From: Qipengyuania profundimaris
GTDB lineage: Bacteria > Pseudomonadota > Alphaproteobacteria > Sphingomonadales > Sphingomonadaceae
DNA: 64,000 bases
Reading direction: 5' to 3'
Assembly: GCF_030717945.1 (NCBI RefSeq)
Contig: NZ_JAVAIM010000001.1
Location: 743,131-807,130 of the forward strand
Under the pieces are notes generated by a model. The model had not been told where the DNA came from and did not search any database. It saw only the letters and a list, made by a program, of their open reading frames with translations. The position numbers were made by a program, and so were the translations under genes. Of the stretch, positions 14,601 through 26,037 are shown one piece after another. Numbering within the stretch: position 1 is the first letter of the stretch; every line of letters begins with the position of its first letter.

Positions 14601-15264
14601 TGCGATTCCGATGAATGACGGGTGCCTGCGACCGGTCGAGCTGATCGTGCCCGGGGGCTCGATGCTCAATCCCAGGCCGGGCGCTGCGGTCGTCGCCGGC
14701 AATGTCGAGACCAGCCAGGTTGTCACCGACGCGCTGTTTGCCGCGACGGGTCGGCTCGCGCCGAGCCAGGGGACGATGAACAATTTCACCTTCGGAAACG
14801 AGCGACACCAGTATTACGAGACCATCTGCGGCGGCTCCGGCGCAGGGCCGGATCACGACGGTACCAGCGCGGTGCAGACGCACATGACGAATTCGCGGCT
14901 CACCGATCCGGAAATTTTCGAAACGCGCCTGCCGGTGCGGCTGGAGCGTTTCGCAATCCGTCACGGGTCGGGAGGCGAGGGCGCGTATAGCGGTGGCGAC
15001 GGCGTCGAGCGCTGCGTCACGTTCCTCGAGCCGATCCGCGCGAATATCCTCGCCAATCGCAGGAAGGTTGCGCCGAAGGGAATCCGTGGCGGTGGCGATG
15101 CCAAGCCGGGTGCGAACTGGGTGGACCGCGTGGATGGTACGCGCGAGTCGCTCGATGCGACCGCTGCTGCCGACATGCAGCCGGGTGACCGGTTCACGAT
15201 CCTCACGCCGGGCGGTGGCGGGTTCGGAGCGGCGGCCGTTCCCGACCCGACCGGAAAGTCCTAG
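11674..15264 (+). CDS. 5-oxoprolinase (ATP-hydrolysing), fused HyuA-HyuB type
   Basis: 1196 aa, the length of eukaryotic-type fused 5-oxoprolinases, which open 5-oxo-L-proline to glutamate with ATP in glutathione/pyroglutamate turnover. The HyuA half (residues about 8-660) has [39 protein letters not shown] and [13 protein letters not shown]. The HyuB half (about 670-1190) has the [12 protein letters not shown] opening, [31 protein letters not shown] and [12 protein letters not shown]. In some bacteria the halves are separate; here they are one chain. It diverges from rel and converges with the GH3 gene, with overlapping stops (CTAG). Confidence 0.95.
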
Positions 15265-17294
15265 CTGTTGGCCGCTCCCTTCAGCGGCAAGATCTTTGCT
15301 TTGCCTGCACCGTTCATCGCGTCGGCAACCGGCTGCGGCAGCGCGATTTCGCCGATCCTGACCCGCGCTGCGCTGAAGCCCAGCCGGACTTCGTAGTCGC
15401 CCGCCTCGACCTTGAACCGGGCCTGCGCGTCATATTGCGCGAGCGCCTCGGCAGCGAGTTCGAATGAGACCTGGATGCTCTGGCCCGGTTCGAGCGCGAT
15501 CCTCTGGAACCCGCGGAGAACGGCCTCCCGCGATGCGTCGGGACCGTTGAGCCTGCGAAGGTAGAGCTGCAGCATCTCTTCGCCGCGCCGCTCGCCGATA
15601 TTCCGGAGGCGGGCGCTGGCAAGGATGCGGTCGGCGCCAAGCTCTAACGACAGATCGCCAAGCGTGAATTCGCCATACGACAAGCCATGTCCGAAGGGTA
15701 GGCGGACCTCTCCGCTGCGCGTCCTGATCGCATAGGGCAGACGTGCGGACGGCTCGCTTTGTCCGCTCAGTATCTCGGCGATCGCATGACCCGACTGCGT
15801 GCCCAGCGTTCCGGCATGGAGAATGCAGGGCAGCGGCTCTCCGCCGATATCGGGATCGCAGGGCCGCGAACCGAGCGTGACGAGGACAGTTCTCGGATTG
15901 GCGGCGCGCAATGTCTCGAGCAGCACCGTCTGCGCTTCGCCCAGCGGCTCGCCCGGTCGCTCGCTGCCCTGCCCGAGCACGGCCACCACTATTCCCGCAC
16001 GGCGCGCGGCTTCGCCGGCCATGCCGATGGCCATGCGATCGGCGTGGATCATCCTGTTGATGACCGACTGACCTTCGCGCAGGGCAAGGCCGGCCACGAA
16101 CTTGTGTGCGATGCCGAGCGCCTCGAGGCCATCGATGACGCTAGTCGCGTCGCCCCGGCTCCCGCTGGAAGAAAGCGAACGGTCGCGAGCTGCGCTGCCG
16201 ACCACGAGGACGTCTTCGCCGCCGGGCGACAACGGGAGCAGTCCGCCCTGGTTGCGGAGCAAGACGATCGACTTGCTCGCCAGATCGTGTGCCGGGTCTC
16301 GAAGGTCATTGGGCCTTGGCGGTGCAGCGGGCGCCACATCCTCCGACGGACGGAACAGCCCGAGATCGAATTTCGCCGCGAGAACCCGGCGCACGGCTTC
16401 GTCGAGCTCGCTGGCACCGATGCGCCCGTCCTCGACGGCCGCGACCAAGCGCTCTACCGACAGGCCGATGAAGGCCGGTCCGTCGGCGTGGTGTCCGGAT
16501 TTCTCTGCCAGTTGCGCCCAATCGGCCAGCAGGATCCCATCGAACCCGCCGGCGCGGCGCAGGTTTTTCAAAGCGTCGTTCGCGATCCGGGAGACGTTGC
16601 GCCGGCCTTGGCCTATCATATCGAGACCGATGGTCGCGGGAGCAGCCTGTTCGACCGTCTTGAGAATGGCGCGAAATTGTTCGCGCTCTCGCAGGCTGCC
16701 TTCTCCGCGACGTCCGGCCCTGTCGTTGAAGGCAAGATCGAGCGTGGCCAGAACCTGCCGCCGAAAGTCGCTGCGTTGCGCCTGCAATCCGCGTACGCGG
16801 CCAGCAGCGATCTGCTCTGCGAGCCAGGCGCTTTCGCCGAAAGACTGCTCGAAGCCGGCATCGGTGAGATAGTTTGCCGTCGCGAGGACCGGTGAAAAGG
16901 CCCAGTTCAGTCCAAGTGCGAGGTATTCTTCGGAAAGCGCCTCCTCGGCAGCAGCTACTGCTTCGGGGTTCCAGCTGGCGGCCATACCGACCGGGGCGGG
17001 CAGGCGACCGGGCAGCACCTGGGCCGGGTCGGCAGCGAAGAATAGCGGTATGCCGAGACGCGTTTCCTCGATCGCGATCTGTTGCAATTGGTGGGTGCGC
17101 ATGGCGCCGACCGGATCGATAAACCCGCTCACCAGCCCGCGTCGCAACTGGTCTATGCGCGTCGGATCGCTGCTCGCCGATCCATCCGGCAAGAGCACCA
17201 GTTGCCCCGCTTTTTCTTCCAGCGTCATGTAGTCGAGCAGGTCCTCGACGAACCTGACGCGCTCGGGAGCGGGAGTGAAGGGTGTTTGCGACAT
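15261..17294 (-). CDS. Divergent glycoside hydrolase family 3 protein
   Basis: 677 aa with GH3 architecture: an N-terminal barrel opening with MTLEEKAGQLVLL, the nucleophile-type motif FDGILLADWAQ (Asp258), a GH3 C-terminal domain (SIVLLRNQGGLLPLSPGGEDVLVVG) and a fibronectin-III-like tail. No signal peptide, so cytoplasmic unless exported otherwise. Odd points: the usual glucose-binding KHF/GR-D segment of the barrel is replaced by LATLDLAFND, and the RWGR region by ATANYLTDAGFEQSFGE. Activity on ordinary beta-glucosides is therefore doubtful; a changed substrate or a non-enzymatic role is possible. It diverges from the ArsR-methyltransferase regulator. Confidence 0.85.
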   Translation of the reverse strand: MSQTPFTPAPERVRFVEDLLDYMTLEEKAGQLVLLPDGSASSDPTRIDQLRRGLVSGFIDPVGAMRTHQLQQIAIEETRLGIPLFFAADPAQVLPGRLPAPVGMAASWNPEAVAAAEEALSEEYLALGLNWAFSPVLATANYLTDAGFEQSFGESAWLAEQIAAGRVRGLQAQRSDFRRQVLATLDLAFNDRAGRRGEGSLREREQFRAILKTVEQAAPATIGLDMIGQGRRNVSRIANDALKNLRRAGGFDGILLADWAQLAEKSGHHADGPAFIGLSVERLVAAVEDGRIGASELDEAVRRVLAAKFDLGLFRPSEDVAPAAPPRPNDLRDPAHDLASKSIVLLRNQGGLLPLSPGGEDVLVVGSAARDRSLSSSGSRGDATSVIDGLEALGIAHKFVAGLALREGQSVINRMIHADRMAIGMAGEAARRAGIVVAVLGQGSERPGEPLGEAQTVLLETLRAANPRTVLVTLGSRPCDPDIGGEPLPCILHAGTLGTQSGHAIAEILSGQSEPSARLPYAIRTRSGEVRLPFGHGLSYGEFTLGDLSLELGADRILASARLRNIGERRGEEMLQLYLRRLNGPDASREAVLRGFQRIALEPGQSIQVSFELAAEALAQYDAQARFKVEAGDYEVRLGFSAARVRIGEIALPQPVADAMNGAGKAKILPLKGAANS

Positions 17295-17395
17295 TGCCCG
17301 CCGGTGATCGCGGGGAATGGTAAATATCCGGTTTGCAATTGCCGCTTGCTGCGACAGGCCGTGCTTCGGCAGCGACCCTTCCGTAGAGATTTACA

Positions 17396-17417
17396 GATAT
17401 AAAAATATCTTTATATC
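17396..17417. promoter_or_regulatory. Candidate ArsR-type operator before the methionine operon
   Basis: GATATAAA-N6-TTTATATC, perfect 8-bp inverted arms, with a second nested perfect palindrome AGATAT-AAAA-ATATCT at 17395-17410. It lies 10 bp before the regulator ATG (17428) and is strikingly AT-rich in this GC-rich sequence. The two overlapping symmetries resemble ArsR/SmtB-family operators. Autorepression of the methionine operon is inferred. Confidence 0.7.
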
Positions 17418-17427
17418 CCCTGCAGGA

Positions 17428-18399
17428 ATGCACACCGAAACCCTCTTCCGCGCGCTGGCCGACCCTACGCGCCTCAGGATCCTGCGGCTGCTGGGGTCGA
17501 TGGAACTTGCCGTGGGGGAGGTGGCGCAGGTGCTCGGCCAGAGCCAGCCGCGGGTTTCGCGCCATATCGGCATCCTGTGCGACGCCGGTCTTGCCGAGCG
17601 GCGGCGCGAGGGCAGCTGGACTTTCGTTCGTGCAGGATCGACTACAGCCGGAGAGCCATCGCTTTCCGGAGGTGCCATCCGTTTGCTCGACGTTGCGGAA
17701 CACGCGGACAACGATTTTGCCGATCTATGCGCCTCCGATCGGCGCAAGCTCGCCGAAATCCGCGAAACCCGCGAAGCCGAGGCGCAGGCCTATTTCGCCC
17801 GCCACGCGCACGATTGGGATGAATTGCGCCGCCTGCACAGCTCGGACGAAGCGATCGAAAGCGCTCTGGACGCAGCCTTGGGCAGCGCCCCGCTCGGTCG
17901 TTTGCTCGATATCGGCACGGGAACCGGGCGCATGGCCGAGCTCTTTGCCGAGCGCGCCGAGCACATCGTGGCTCTGGACAAGAGCCTTGCGATGCTGCGC
18001 GTGGCGCGAGCGAAACTTCAGAACCTGCCGACCCATCGGGTCGAACTCGTCCAGGGCGATTTCGGATCGCTCCCCTTTGCCGGGGCTAGCTTCGACACGG
18101 TGCTGTTCCATCAAGTGCTTCATTTCGCCCAGGCTCCGCGCGCCGCCCTGGCAGAGGCTGCGCGGGTCACGTCTCCGGGCGGGCGTATCGCGATCGTCGA
18201 TTTCGCCGCCCACCAGCGCGAGGAACTGCGTGAGCGCTACGCTCATGCCCGCCTCGGCTTCGGTGACGCGCAAATGCGTGACCTGCTGCAAGACGCCGGC
18301 TTCGTCCCTGGCGAGACCGCCGCCCTGGAGGATGGCGAGCTGGTCGTGAAAATCTGGATCGCAGAGCGCGATGCCGAAGCAAGAAAGGCCGTATCGTGA
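17428..18399 (+). CDS. ArsR-family regulator fused to a SAM-dependent methyltransferase domain
   Basis: 323 aa. N-terminal winged HTH (residues 1-85: LFRALADPTRLRILRLLGSMELAVGEVAQVLGQSQPRVSRHIGILCDAGL), then a class I methyltransferase fold with motif I LLDIGTGTGRMAELF (about residue 160) and VALDKSLAMLRVAR. Fusions of this kind are known regulators of methionine/SAM-cycle genes in proteobacteria (SahR/SamR group), sensing SAM or SAH through the methyltransferase-like domain. It heads metF-metH and overlaps metF by GTGA, which supports that role. I start at MHTETLF, preceded by GCAGGA and an operator-like palindrome; an upstream frame to 17317 runs through that palindrome and is unlikely. Confidence 0.92.
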   Translation: MHTETLFRALADPTRLRILRLLGSMELAVGEVAQVLGQSQPRVSRHIGILCDAGLAERRREGSWTFVRAGSTTAGEPSLSGGAIRLLDVAEHADNDFADLCASDRRKLAEIRETREAEAQAYFARHAHDWDELRRLHSSDEAIESALDAALGSAPLGRLLDIGTGTGRMAELFAERAEHIVALDKSLAMLRVARAKLQNLPTHRVELVQGDFGSLPFAGASFDTVLFHQVLHFAQAPRAALAEAARVTSPGGRIAIVDFAAHQREELRERYAHARLGFGDAQMRDLLQDAGFVPGETAALEDGELVVKIWIAERDAEARKAVS

Positions 18400-19316
18400 G
18401 TCCGACCCTCAACCAGATGCGCGAAGCGCAGCGCGCGCTGGAAGCGCCCCTATTCTCGGGGCTTCCCGGCGATATCGAGGTGAGCTTCGAATTCTTCCCG
18501 CCGAAGTCGGAGAAGATGGCGCAGACGCTGTGGCAGAGCGTGGAGACTCTTGCCCCGCTAGACCCGCGTTTCGTGTCGGTGACCTATGGCGCCGGTGGCT
18601 CTACCCGCGAGCGCACGCATGCAGCGGTGCGCCGTATCGTGAGCGAGACCGATATTCCCGCCGCTGCGCACCTCACCTGCGTTCAGGCGACCCGCGAGGA
18701 GGTTGACCAGGTCGCGCGCGAATATTGGGAAGAGGGCGTGCGGCATATCGTCGCCCTGCGCGGCGACGCCCCCGACGGTGGCGGCAGCTACGCCCCGCAT
18801 CCCGGCGGCTACCAGAACGCCGCAGACCTGATTGCAGGCCTCAAGCAGATCGCCGATTTCGAGATTTCGGTCGCGGCCTATCCGGAAGTCCATCCGGATT
18901 CGCCCGATCGTCAGGCCGACCTCGATAACCTCAAGCGCAAGTTCGATGCCGGGGCGACTCGCGCGATTACGCAATTCTTCTTCGATCCCGAGTGCTTTTT
19001 CGAGTTCCGCGACAAGGCGGAGGCTGCCGGGATCGAGGGCGAGATCGTGCCGGGCGTCATGCCCGTGATGAGTTTCGCAGCCGTCCAGCGGATGAGCGGA
19101 TTGTGCGGCACCGCCATCCCCGACTGGATGGAAGGTCTGTTCGAGGGGCTCGACGAGCGGCCCGAAGCCCGCCAGCTGGTGAGCGCGACAATCGCTGCCG
19201 AAATGTGCCGCCGCCTCTATGCCGGCGGCGTTCGCCAGTTCCATTTCTACACTCTCAACCGCGCCGAGCTGAGCTATGCGATCTGCCACATGCTCGGCCT
19301 GCGACCGAAGGCCTGA
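18396..19316 (+). CDS. metF: Methylenetetrahydrofolate reductase MetF
   Basis: 306 aa FAD enzyme reducing 5,10-methylene-THF to 5-methyl-THF for methionine synthase. Motifs: EVSFEFFPPKSEKM with the catalytic Glu (about residue 30), FVSVTYGAGGSTRERT, AHLTCVQ, VALRGDAPDGG, AAYPEVHPDS, and TQFFFDPECFFEFRD. It is the standard bacterial length. GTG start 18396 overlaps the regulator stop, and metH part 1 follows after 1 nt. The glycine-cleavage operon just downstream makes the methylene-THF it uses. Confidence 0.97.
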   Translation: MSPTLNQMREAQRALEAPLFSGLPGDIEVSFEFFPPKSEKMAQTLWQSVETLAPLDPRFVSVTYGAGGSTRERTHAAVRRIVSETDIPAAAHLTCVQATREEVDQVAREYWEEGVRHIVALRGDAPDGGGSYAPHPGGYQNAADLIAGLKQIADFEISVAAYPEVHPDSPDRQADLDNLKRKFDAGATRAITQFFFDPECFFEFRDKAEAAGIEGEIVPGVMPVMSFAAVQRMSGLCGTAIPDWMEGLFEGLDERPEARQLVSATIAAEMCRRLYAGGVRQFHFYTLNRAELSYAICHMLGLRPKA

Positions 19317-19317
19317 C

Positions 19318-20364
19318 ATGTCCAAGCGTACCGAATTCGCCGAAGCCGCCGGCCAGCGCATCCTGATCAAGGATGGCCCCTACGGCACCGAAATCCAGCG
19401 CGCCAAGTTGGCGCCGGAGGATTATGCGGGCGATACCGGCCTGACCGCCGACCAGAAGGGCAATAACGATCTCGTCAATTTGACGCAGCCGCAGGTGATC
19501 CGGACGATCTGCGACAGCTATGTCGATGCCGGCGCGCATATCCTTGCCACCAACACTTTCAACGCCAACCGCATCAGCCAGGCGGATTACGATGCCGAGC
19601 ATCTGGTGCACGAGATCAACGTCTCCGCCGCCCGCATCATCCGCGAAGCGGTGGACGAGGCAACGGCGAAGGACGGCATACCCCGTTTCGTCGCAGGCGC
19701 GATGGGGCCGACCAACAAGACGCTCTCGCTCTCGCCCGATGTCGAGGACCCGGGCTTTCGCGAAGTCACCTACGACGAAATCGTGGATGTCTATGTCGAG
19801 CAGGCGCGCGCCCTGATCGAGGGCGGGGCGGACTTCATCCTGATCGAGACCGTATTCGACACGCTCAATTGCAAGGCCGCGATCATGGCGGTCAAGCAGC
19901 TGGAGCGCGAGCTTCGGCAGGACATCCCGATCATGATCTCGCTCACGCTGACCGATCTGTCGGGCCGCAATCTGTCGGGCCACACGGTCGAGGCCTTCTG
20001 GTACACCGTGCGCCACGCCAAGCCGCTGACGATGGGCCTCAACTGCAGCTTCGGTGCCGAGCAGCTGCGCCCGCATGTCCAGATCCTGTCGGACATCGCG
20101 GATACCTATCTGATGGTCTATCCCAATGCGGGCCTACCCAACGATATGGGCGAATACGACGAATTGCCGGAGACGACAGCCGCGCTGACCAAGGTTTGGG
20201 CCGACAACGGACGGATCAATGCGCTCGGTGGCTGCTGCGGTTCGACCCCCGCCCACATCGCCGCAATGGCCGCGGCCGTCGACGGCATCGCGCCACGCAA
20301 GCTGCCCACCGTCGACCCGGAAATGCGCTTGGCAGGCCTCGAACCTTTCACGATTGCAGCATGA
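19318..20364 (+). CDS. metH: Methionine synthase part 1: homocysteine S-methyltransferase module
   Basis: 348 aa corresponding to the N-terminal homocysteine-binding barrel of cobalamin-dependent MetH. The zinc ligands are visible: Cys in [15 protein letters not shown] and the Cys pair in [14 protein letters not shown]. It opens [16 protein letters not shown] where most MetH proteins have DGAMGT. I start at ATG 19318 (MSKRTEF), 1 nt after metF; a frame to 19276 runs into metF. The remaining modules lie in a separate gene at 20892, so MetH works here as two polypeptides, as known in other sphingomonads and rhizobia. Confidence 0.95.
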
Positions 20365-20888
20365 GCAAGCGCCCCGATCACGAGGTGAAAATCCGCGAGG
20401 CCGGCATAGAGGGCGCTGCGCGGCTTTCGCTCGTCTCCGATGCGACTTTTCTCGAAACCTTCGCAGGCATGATCGACGGGGATGCTCTGGTGGCGCATTG
20501 CCAGAAGCACCATGAGGCGGCGTATCTGGCCAAGCTGCTCGACGATGGCGCGAGAGCCTGGCTCGCCGAAATAGACGGGGCGCCCACTGGCTATGCCTTG
20601 CTCAACCGGCCTCAGCTCGAGGCAGCCGAAGAGGGCGATATCGAGCTGAAGAAAATTTACGTGCTGTCGCGTTTTCACGGCAGCGGCATCGCAAAACTTC
20701 TGTTCGACGCCGTCATGCAGGCAGCGGCCGGCAACGATCACCTCCTGCTGGGCGTGAAGGACGACAATCACCGCGCCATCGCCTTCTATCGCAAGCAGGG
20801 CTTCACCCAGATTGCCACGCGCCGCTTCGATGTCGGCGGCAAGCTTTACGATGATGTCGTCCTAGCGCGCGACCTCGACCGGACCTGA
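20361..20888 (+). CDS. GNAT-family N-acetyltransferase
   Basis: 175 aa with the GNAT core: a beta strand then [24 protein letters not shown] (acetyl-CoA pyrophosphate loop R-x-x-G-x-G/A near residue 106) and [28 protein letters not shown]. Its ATG lies in the metH part 1 stop (ATGA), and metH part 2 starts 3 nt after its end, so it is translated between two halves of one enzyme. The substrate is unknown. A role in acetylating an amino acid or protein linked to methionine metabolism is only suggested by position. Confidence 0.9.
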
Positions 20889-20891
20889 CCC

Positions 20892-23491
<2,600 letters not shown>

Positions 23492-23516
<25 letters not shown>

Positions 23517-24604: not shown

Positions 24605-24793
24605 CACGGGAGAGCGTGCGGGGCGGCGTCCCCGTACCGCCGAAGGAGCAACCGCCCCGGAAACTCTCAGGCCACCGGACCGTGCGGGCCATCGACACTC
24701 TGGAAAGCGCCGGTCGCCATCGCGGCCAGCCACCGAAGGGGTAAGCACGCCCATCCGCGTGTCAGTCTCTCAGGTTTCCCGACAGAGGGGGCA
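24605..24793 (+). ncRNA. Tandem glycine riboswitch
   Basis: Two successive aptamers with the glycine-riboswitch consensus. Aptamer 1 (about 24605-24690): GGGAGAG, then GCCGAAGGAGCAA, then ACTCTCAGG. Aptamer 2 (about 24693-24793): ACTCTGG, then ACCGAAGGGGTAAGC, then TCTCTCAGG and CCGACAGAGGGG. It stands directly before the glycine-cleavage operon, the classic target, where glycine binding turns expression on. The 150 bp before it (24449-24604) show nothing clear and must contain the promoter. Confidence 0.95.
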
Positions 24794-24831
24794 TGGGTTG
24801 TTTTCCCGCGCCGGGATCGGCGCGCCCATGC
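24791..24831 (+). promoter_or_regulatory. Two-tier hairpin in the riboswitch expression platform
   Basis: Outer arms GCATGGG (24791-24797) and CCCATGC (24825-24831) enclose inner arms CGCGCCG (24807-24813) and CGGCGCG (24818-24824). The structure begins at the end of aptamer 2 and ends 3 nt before the Shine-Dalgarno GAAGGA (24835-24840) of gcvT. Only TTT follows, so it looks less like a strong terminator than a structure that could compete with aptamer 2 or affect ribosome access. Confidence 0.55.
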
Positions 24832-24846
24832 TTTGAAGGACGGGAC

Positions 24847-26037
24847 TTGAGCGAGACTGAAGAAAACGAACAGCAGGAAACCGGCACGCTGCCGCTCGAT
24901 GCATGGCATCGCGGCAAGGGCGCTCGCATGGTCGAGTTCGCCGGTTACTGGATGCCGATCCAGTACAACAAGGAAACCGGCGGCGGGATCGTCGCCGAAC
25001 ACGACTGGACGCGCAGCAATGCGGGCCTGTTTGATGTCAGCCACATGGGCCAGCTGATGGTGACCGGCGAAAAGGCAGCCGAGGAACTGGAGAAGCTGCT
25101 TCCCGGCGCCATCGCCACGCTGAAGCCGGGCCGGGTCCGCTACTCGCTGCTCCTCAACGACGAGGGCGGGATCCTCGACGATCTGATGGTGACGAATGCC
25201 ACCCCGTGGATCGAGGGCGACGAGGACGCTGGCACCGAAGGCCGTTGGGGCGAACCTGCCTATTACATCGTCGTCAATGGTGCGATGAAGTGGGACGATA
25301 TCGCCCATCTGCGCGAGCATCTCGACGACGATGTCACGCTCACGCACATGGACGATTTTGCGCTGGTCGCGCTGCAGGGGCCCAATGCCGCGACTGCGCT
25401 CAACCGCATCATGCGCGGGGTGCCCGAGCAGCTCGTATTCATGCAATCGCTTGAGCACGATTTCGGCGAATGGCCGCTGCGGATCACCCGCGCAGGCTAC
25501 ACCGGCGAGGACGGGTTCGAGATTTCGGTACCTGCCGAATTCGCGGAATCCCTGTGCGACCGCCTGTGCGCGGAGATCGAAGTGCGTCCGGCAGGCCTCG
25601 GCGCGCGCGACAGCTTGCGGCTTGAGGCGGGCCTGCCGCTCTACGGCCACGACATGACCGACACGGTCGATCCGGTCAGCGCCGATCTCGCCTTCGCGCT
25701 CACCAAGAAGCGCCGCGAGACAGGCGGCTGGATGGGCTTCGACGCGGTGAAGACGCTGATGGAGTCCGGCCCGAAGGAACGCCGCGTGGGCCTTGCCCTC
25801 GAAGGGCGCCTGCCGGCCCGCGAAGGTGCGGAAATCTACGCGGGCGACGACAAGGTCGGCCGCGTCACCAGCGGCGGCTTCTCGCCCACGCTCGGCCACC
25901 CGATCGCCATGGGCTATGTCGATGTCGCCCATGCCGAAGCGGGAACCGATCTGGAGATCATGGTTCGTAACAAGAGACTTGCGGCGAAGGTGGTGACGCT
26001 CCCCTTCGTCTCCCACAACTATTACCGAGGGAGCTGA
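24847..26037 (+). CDS. gcvT: Aminomethyltransferase (glycine cleavage T protein)
   Basis: 396 aa. It takes the aminomethyl group from lipoyl-GcvH and passes methylene to THF, releasing ammonia. Motifs: [44 protein letters not shown]-type [28 protein letters not shown], and [14 protein letters not shown]. The start is TTG 24847 with GAAGGA 6 nt upstream; the only upstream ATG in frame (24793) lies in the riboswitch platform. First gene of gcvT-gcvH-gcvPA-gcvPB, controlled by the glycine riboswitch. Confidence 0.95.

Follow-up and report, generated by a model that had tools for sequence, protein, structure and literature searches.

A conserved palindrome as the very probable autoregulatory operator of SahR upstream of the methionine genes of Qipengyuania profundimaris

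The palindrome located immediately upstream of an ArsR-methyltransferase gene in Q. profundimaris is very probably the autoregulatory operator of SahR, a repressor of the S-adenosylmethionine (SAM) cycle that combines an ArsR domain with a methyltransferase domain. The same site was found in front of metK in this genome, and it was conserved upstream of the orthologous regulator genes of many relatives. The SahR switch itself is already known, and the case described here is a well-conserved example of a described system. The new detail is the apparent position of the sahR operator within a -35/-10 pair, with a transcription start predicted to lie close to the start codon.

The palindrome and the genes behind it

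The window, that is, the whole stretch of 64,000 nucleotides that was analysed, contained the palindrome GATATAAA-AATATC-TTTATATC at positions 17396-17417, with both 8-bp arms perfect and with 10 of the 11 half-site positions pairing over the full 22 bp. A gap of 10 bases separated its end from the ATG of sahR at 17428, so that the palindrome with a 6-nt spacer, perfect 8-bp arms and a distance of 10 bp to the ATG, as pointed out in a previous sequence-only reading of this DNA, was borne out. We propose 17396-17417 as the SahR operator, with a 20-bp core at 17397-17416 that recurs before metK and is kept in orthologues.

Thirty perfect 8-bp inverted repeats with spacers of 0-12 were present in the window, and AT-rich arms (at least 6 of 8) were found only in the sahR palindrome. 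When the 133-bp intergenic region was subjected to 2000 dinucleotide shuffles, an 8-bp repeat with a spacer of 0-12 appeared in 32 of them, and one with a spacer of 6 in 4. Taken alone the palindrome is moderately unusual, and it is its recurrence and conservation that establish it. Those 32 shuffles lend something to the idea of an AT-rich palindrome arisen by chance, or of an unrelated element such as a replication sequence, a terminator or a transposon end, but this idea is contradicted by the metK copy, the conservation across the class and the co-occurrence with the regulator gene described below. In addition, no terminator-like sites were found within 17290-17470, and Rfam at its gathering threshold gave no match at the palindrome, its matches in the window amounting to two tRNAs and one glycine riboswitch. 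We regard this explanation as having a practically negligible probability.

The product of the sahR gene (17428-18399, forward strand) has 323 amino acids. Residues 12-57 form an ArsR winged helix (PF01022) and residues 160-256 a class I methyltransferase-like domain (PF08241), and both domains are present in the AlphaFold model (25 sequences, mean pLDDT 85.4). Residues D161, G163, T164, G165 and G167 of the glycine-rich SAM/SAH motif, DIGTGTG, were invariant in 17 sequences. In a PDB sequence search, each of the 60 matches listed out of 73 covered one domain, and no ArsR-methyltransferase fusion was found among them. The best Foldseek match of the model was Rv2258c (TM 0.44), with an rmsd of 19 suggesting that the likeness is probably confined to a single domain. 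We rejected a longer ORF of 360 amino acids, which starts at an ATG at 17317 and would enclose the site, since the whole open frame of a relative carrying the exact site (G014) has 325 amino acids.

Four further ORFs follow sahR on the forward strand. The first is metF (18396-19316), coding for methylenetetrahydrofolate reductase, which overlaps the end of sahR and matched PRK09432 with 385.9 bits (cut-off 382) and TIGR00676 with 342.8 bits (cut-off 293.7). It is followed by a first part of metH (19318-20364), containing the homocysteine S-methyltransferase domain (PF02574; metH positions 3-338 of 1182), by a GNAT acetyltransferase gene (20361-20888, PF00583), and by a second part of metH (20892-23516), which carries the pterin-binding, B12-binding and activation domains according to its Pfam domains and to TIGR02082 (positions 341-1182, 1159.5 bits, cut-off 1010.85). 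These profile matches confirmed the presence of metF and metH downstream that had been read from the letters, with metH as two ORFs. The spacing throughout sahR-metF-metH1-GNAT-metH2 consists of few-base gaps or overlaps, and the five genes may be transcribed as a single transcript.

Three other features of the window deserve mention. Within the run behind sahR (19318-23516), metH is split in two ORFs with the gene for the GNAT acetyltransferase between them. On the opposite side, a divergent gene of glycoside hydrolase family 3 (15261-17294, reverse strand) starts 101 bp from the operator, and nothing was seen tying it to SahR. Finally, a glycine riboswitch (RF00504, 24597-24692, forward strand, 52.2 bits with a gathering threshold of 32) lies shortly upstream of an ORF (24793-26037) that by eye resembles the glycine-cleavage T protein.

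Recurrence of the site in the genome and among relatives

A scan of the whole genome (2.95 Mb) gave one exact match to the core, which was the one at sahR, and one match with a single mismatch, located at positions 50440-50459 of contig C1, where the ATG of metK, the gene for SAM synthetase, follows after 16 bp. Recurrence at another methionine or SAM-cycle gene had been put forward as one of the two tests of the proposal, and it was encountered before metK. When the scan tolerated as many as 3 mismatches in 14 positions, 8 forward places were found in the genome against 8 in the reversed control, and therefore we claim no sites beyond those of sahR and metK. At ahcY (C1:1560702), the 300 bp preceding the matched stretch contained no site, the best candidate there having 8 mismatches out of 16.

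In the genus, 41 genomes drawn evenly out of a larger group were scanned. There were 68 places with at most one core mismatch, distributed before sahR (30), metK (34) and ahcY (3), with 1 elsewhere, and the reversed control pattern gave matches in 3 of the 41 genomes. All but one of the 41 had a clear sahR orthologue, and 35 of these 40 were preceded by a site with up to 2 mismatches over the 14 core positions, the site being degraded or missing in 5. The genome in which no orthologue was found (G006, 91% complete) nevertheless carries the metK site. The metK and the ahcY loci were each read in 30 of the 41 genomes, and 28 of the 30 ahcY loci read had nothing better than 6 mismatches out of 16; the other 11 ahcY loci were judged by the one-mismatch scan only, which showed a site in one, that of G003.

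As to ahcY itself, a site with at most one mismatch was observed in 3 of the 41 genomes of the genus, and no Rfam riboswitch was found at the 14 ahcY loci scanned. Riboswitch control was rejected as a candidate, Rfam being empty at 18 stretches (14 of ahcY, 3 of metK and 1 of sahR) that were part of the loci gathered.

The named relatives comprised the best 80 of at least 596 candidates from titled GTDB records, with some strains shared with the genus set, and belonged mainly to Novosphingobium, Erythrobacter and other Erythrobacteraceae, Sphingomonas and Sphingobium. The closest SahR proteins in these best 80 were those of Qipengyuania mesophila (77% identity) and Q. flava (76%). A site with no more than 2 of 14 mismatches was located before sahR in 79 of these best 80 loci (63 exact, 13 with one mismatch and 3 with two), and the remaining locus had five mismatches. 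In two Novosphingobium species (L229 and L230) the first operator-like half is followed by a TTGACC word and then by a second such half, GATATAA, so that SahR sites may stand in tandem there.

At the level of the class, an orthologue (E up to 1e-25) was detected in 94 of 190 sampled Alphaproteobacteria. Twenty of the 27 class-level upstream regions that were read had a site with up to 2 mismatches, while 200 shuffled sets averaged 0.03 and never exceeded 1. The class consensus AYATAARNATATNYTTATRT, which was written after viewing the class-level upstream regions, was present in 63 of the 94 regulator-bearing genomes and in 0 of the 96 lacking the regulator, the latter not being independent negatives because many of the regulator-free genomes are small and related and no more than 11 candidates per genome were scored. 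The reversed control gave 2 of 190. The consensus was also present in 45 of the 64 regulator-bearing genomes that were unseen when it was written, and this strict class pattern was absent from 31 of the 94.

The class consensus matched 74 sites, of which 54 were within 250 bp upstream of sahR. Among the 20 located away from sahR, 13 precede metH (5), metF or metF-like genes (3), ahcY (4) and metK (1), and 7 are not at a methionine gene. In two genomes of one genus (L268 and L269, the site at 1501-1520 in both) SahR-type sites lie 21 and 12 bp before the predicted starts of polyphosphate kinase 2 genes (PF03976), which makes these genes a possible extra SahR target. Five class-consensus sites (L261, L266, L271 and two in L273) have neighbour genes not tied to methionine metabolism. 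Separately, the SahR of Gluconobacter frateurii (L252) was 51% identical to that of the window, as close as those of Sphingomonas, suggesting a possible transfer between orders.

A second palindrome, AGATAT-AAAA-ATATCT, was found at 17395-17410. Both palindromes that had been read from the letters are therefore present, but the first does not contain the second, which starts one base outside it, so that the two overlap. None of the 30 metK sites read had the inner one, which was present in 18 of the 35 genus sahR sites and in 12 of the 79 named sahR sites. It is best described as an unconserved by-product, arising because the half-site starts with GATAT and the centre often reads ATATC too. 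Its reading as a second binding mode was rejected in view of these counts.

The symmetry of the sites was also broken in a regular way. Core position 8 was an A in 34 of the 35 genus sahR sites and a G in all 30 metK sites read, whereas the outer ends of the genus metK sites were usually unequal, with perfect 7-bp arms in 1 of 30. These differing but conserved symmetry breaks at the sahR and metK sites might set different thresholds.

Predicted promoter layout at sahR

A predicted -35 hexamer, TTTACA (17390-17395, forward strand), adjoins the operator. All 35 genus sites and 73 of the 79 named ones had a -35-like word in front of the operator. Such words, whose pattern was picked after the sequences had been seen, stood at 185 of 2400 upstream positions taken at random. 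The words were TTTAC or TTGC in the genus, and TTGC, TTGAC, TTTAC, TTGAT or TTGT in the named set. The predicted -10 hexamer, TATATC (17412-17417, forward strand), sits in the operator's right half, and 16 nt separate it from the -35. Among the 35 genus sites, 33 showed this same 16-nt spacing to TATATC/G, and 63 of the 79 named sites had 16-17 nt, counted with the best of six positions as the -35 and without a random control. Rows without a site of up to 2 mismatches (5 of 40 in the genus, 1 of 80 in the named set) were omitted from the promoter-word and start counts. In four relatives forming two similar pairs (G008/G024 and G009/G029), the left half-site had decayed while TTTACA-16 nt-TATAT, as read by eye, was retained, which would separate the promoter from the operator.

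Zymomonas is a sphingomonad. Its promoters are described in PMC7566282 as TTGNNN / TANNNN, with a 17-bp spacer, a 6-bp discriminator and a last -10 base that is not fixed, and the predicted -10 of sahR fits this consensus. A generic sigma-70 scan, which accepts only a -10 ending in T, gave no match upstream of sahR and speaks against the prediction; the Zymomonas consensus leaves that base free. When the 6-bp discriminator of Zymomonas was applied, transcription would start around 17424, 4 nt before the ATG, and we place the predicted start at 17424-17428 (forward strand), 0-4 nt from the ATG. Leaders of up to 5 nt are leaderless by the working definition of PMC7566282, and leaderless mRNAs are described as common in Caulobacter, with 375 reported (PMC4117421).

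For 107 of the 114 relatives a start codon lay no more than 16 nt past the site; as start we took the most upstream in-frame ATG, GTG or TTG after the site, a choice that favours short distances. With the matched start instead, the distance was at most 15 nt for 33 genus sites out of 35 and for 46 named sites out of 79. A Shine-Dalgarno-like word was found in 1 of the 107, a scarcity giving weak support because the operator leaves little room for such a word. With all this, the sahR mRNA looks leaderless or nearly so, as judged from the applied discriminator and the sequences of the relatives.

The position of the operator, ending 10 bases before the ATG, would also suit a real operator acting on translation, with the bound protein or an mRNA hairpin covering the ribosome site. 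We find this highly improbable. With a conserved -35-like word abutting the site and a -10-like word inside it, the transcript would start past the operator, and the near lack of Shine-Dalgarno-like words points the same way, though weakly, since the operator fills most of that space. Moreover, ArsR proteins bind DNA. Promoter occlusion at sahR is thus the likely mode of action. Of the two effects proposed in the sequence-only reading, blocking of transcription agrees with an operator that overlaps a conserved promoter-like pair, while covering of the ribosome site is unlikely for a near-leaderless mRNA. Upstream of the metK sites no -35-like word was seen by eye, and therefore we do not extend the promoter reading to metK.

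SahR systems and the ligand

The ArsR winged helix joined to a methyltransferase-like domain is shared with the SahR of Proteobacteria, and the SahR of Desulfovibrio studied by Novichkov et al. in 2014 reportedly carries a methyltransferase-like domain. By analogy with it, the following mechanism may be proposed. The ArsR winged helices would attach a SahR dimer to the 20-bp core. As the operator would fill the 16-nt gap after the -35 and overlap the -10, bound SahR would deny RNA polymerase access to the promoter of sahR-metF-metH1-GNAT-metH2, and the second operator copy would presumably repress metK. On buildup of S-adenosylhomocysteine (SAH), this compound would bind the methyltransferase-like domain, SahR would leave the DNA and the SAM-regenerating genes would be expressed. 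Recurrence at metK and conservation support the core of what had been proposed from the letters, an operator of an ArsR-methyltransferase regulator in a methionine-cycle regulon.

SahR is described in PMC4239095 as an SAH-responsive repressor of the ArsR family that recognises a 20-bp palindrome, with sahR, ahcY, metH, metF and metK as core targets, and it was reported in 7 of the 7 Sphingomonadales genomes studied there. Here, too, a 20-bp palindrome (17397-17416) lies before the regulator's own gene, its match to the published alphaproteobacterial motif resting on length, symmetry and targets. The regulon also agrees, by sequence, in having metF and metH in the run behind sahR and a site before metK. 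It differs in that no ahcY site was detectable in the genome of the window, which is no bar to SahR membership because a published core target is one found in more than 70% of SahR genomes (PMC4239095), not in all. Two further differences are the conserved symmetry break of the autoregulatory site and the placing of the operator within a promoter-like pair with a predicted near-leaderless start, a layout unmentioned in the available part of PMC4239095.

In Ensifer aridi, SahR sites are reported before sahR, ahcY, metH, bhmT and metK, and expression of sahR was highest in a sahR mutant, supporting autoregulation (PMC8877191). The targets are of the same kind, including sahR and metK, and the Ensifer aridi set is wider. 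Searches of the text of PMC8877191 yielded no motif letters. SamR of Xanthomonadales, a distant SahR homologue (about 30% identity), likewise occurs near metH genes and has metK, metF and others as targets (PMC4239095). As described there, it differs in a 24-bp palindrome sharing ATC-10 nt-GAT, a larger regulon, an effector that is not established and another lineage. The site described here has 20-22 bp in place of 24, and the closest named matches to the window's SahR, among the best 80 of at least 596, were from Qipengyuania and not from Xanthomonadales.

Of the two ligands suggested in the sequence-only reading, the published effector of SahR is SAH and not SAM, and it relieves repression (PMC4239095, citing Novichkov et al. 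2014). The sensed ligand could instead be SAM, or the SAM/SAH balance, as was proposed for SamR, whose SAM sensing was argued from the absence of SAM-cycle genes except metK from its regulon (PMC4239095). The glycine-rich motif retained in the methyltransferase domain and an ahcY gene mostly without a site in the genus are in keeping with this. Against it stand the response of published SahR to SAH and the SahR proteins of the three genomes of the genus that have a site at ahcY, these proteins being 69-74% identical to that of the window, so that nothing marks a change of ligand. We consider a ligand other than SAH alone unlikely, and SAH remains the preferred effector.

Only tentatively do we put forward a wider picture, in which the operator of Sphingomonadales has been built into a leaderless promoter and the switch of this genus has shed ahcY and drives only metF, metH and metK, possibly sensing the SAM/SAH balance. 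What the analysis provides is a SahR switch defined at the sequence level, whose two-site regulon is supported across many genomes, and a promoter layout that is directly testable. An SAH-sensing regulon whose usual core target, ahcY, is mostly without a site helps to ask how regulons change their members.
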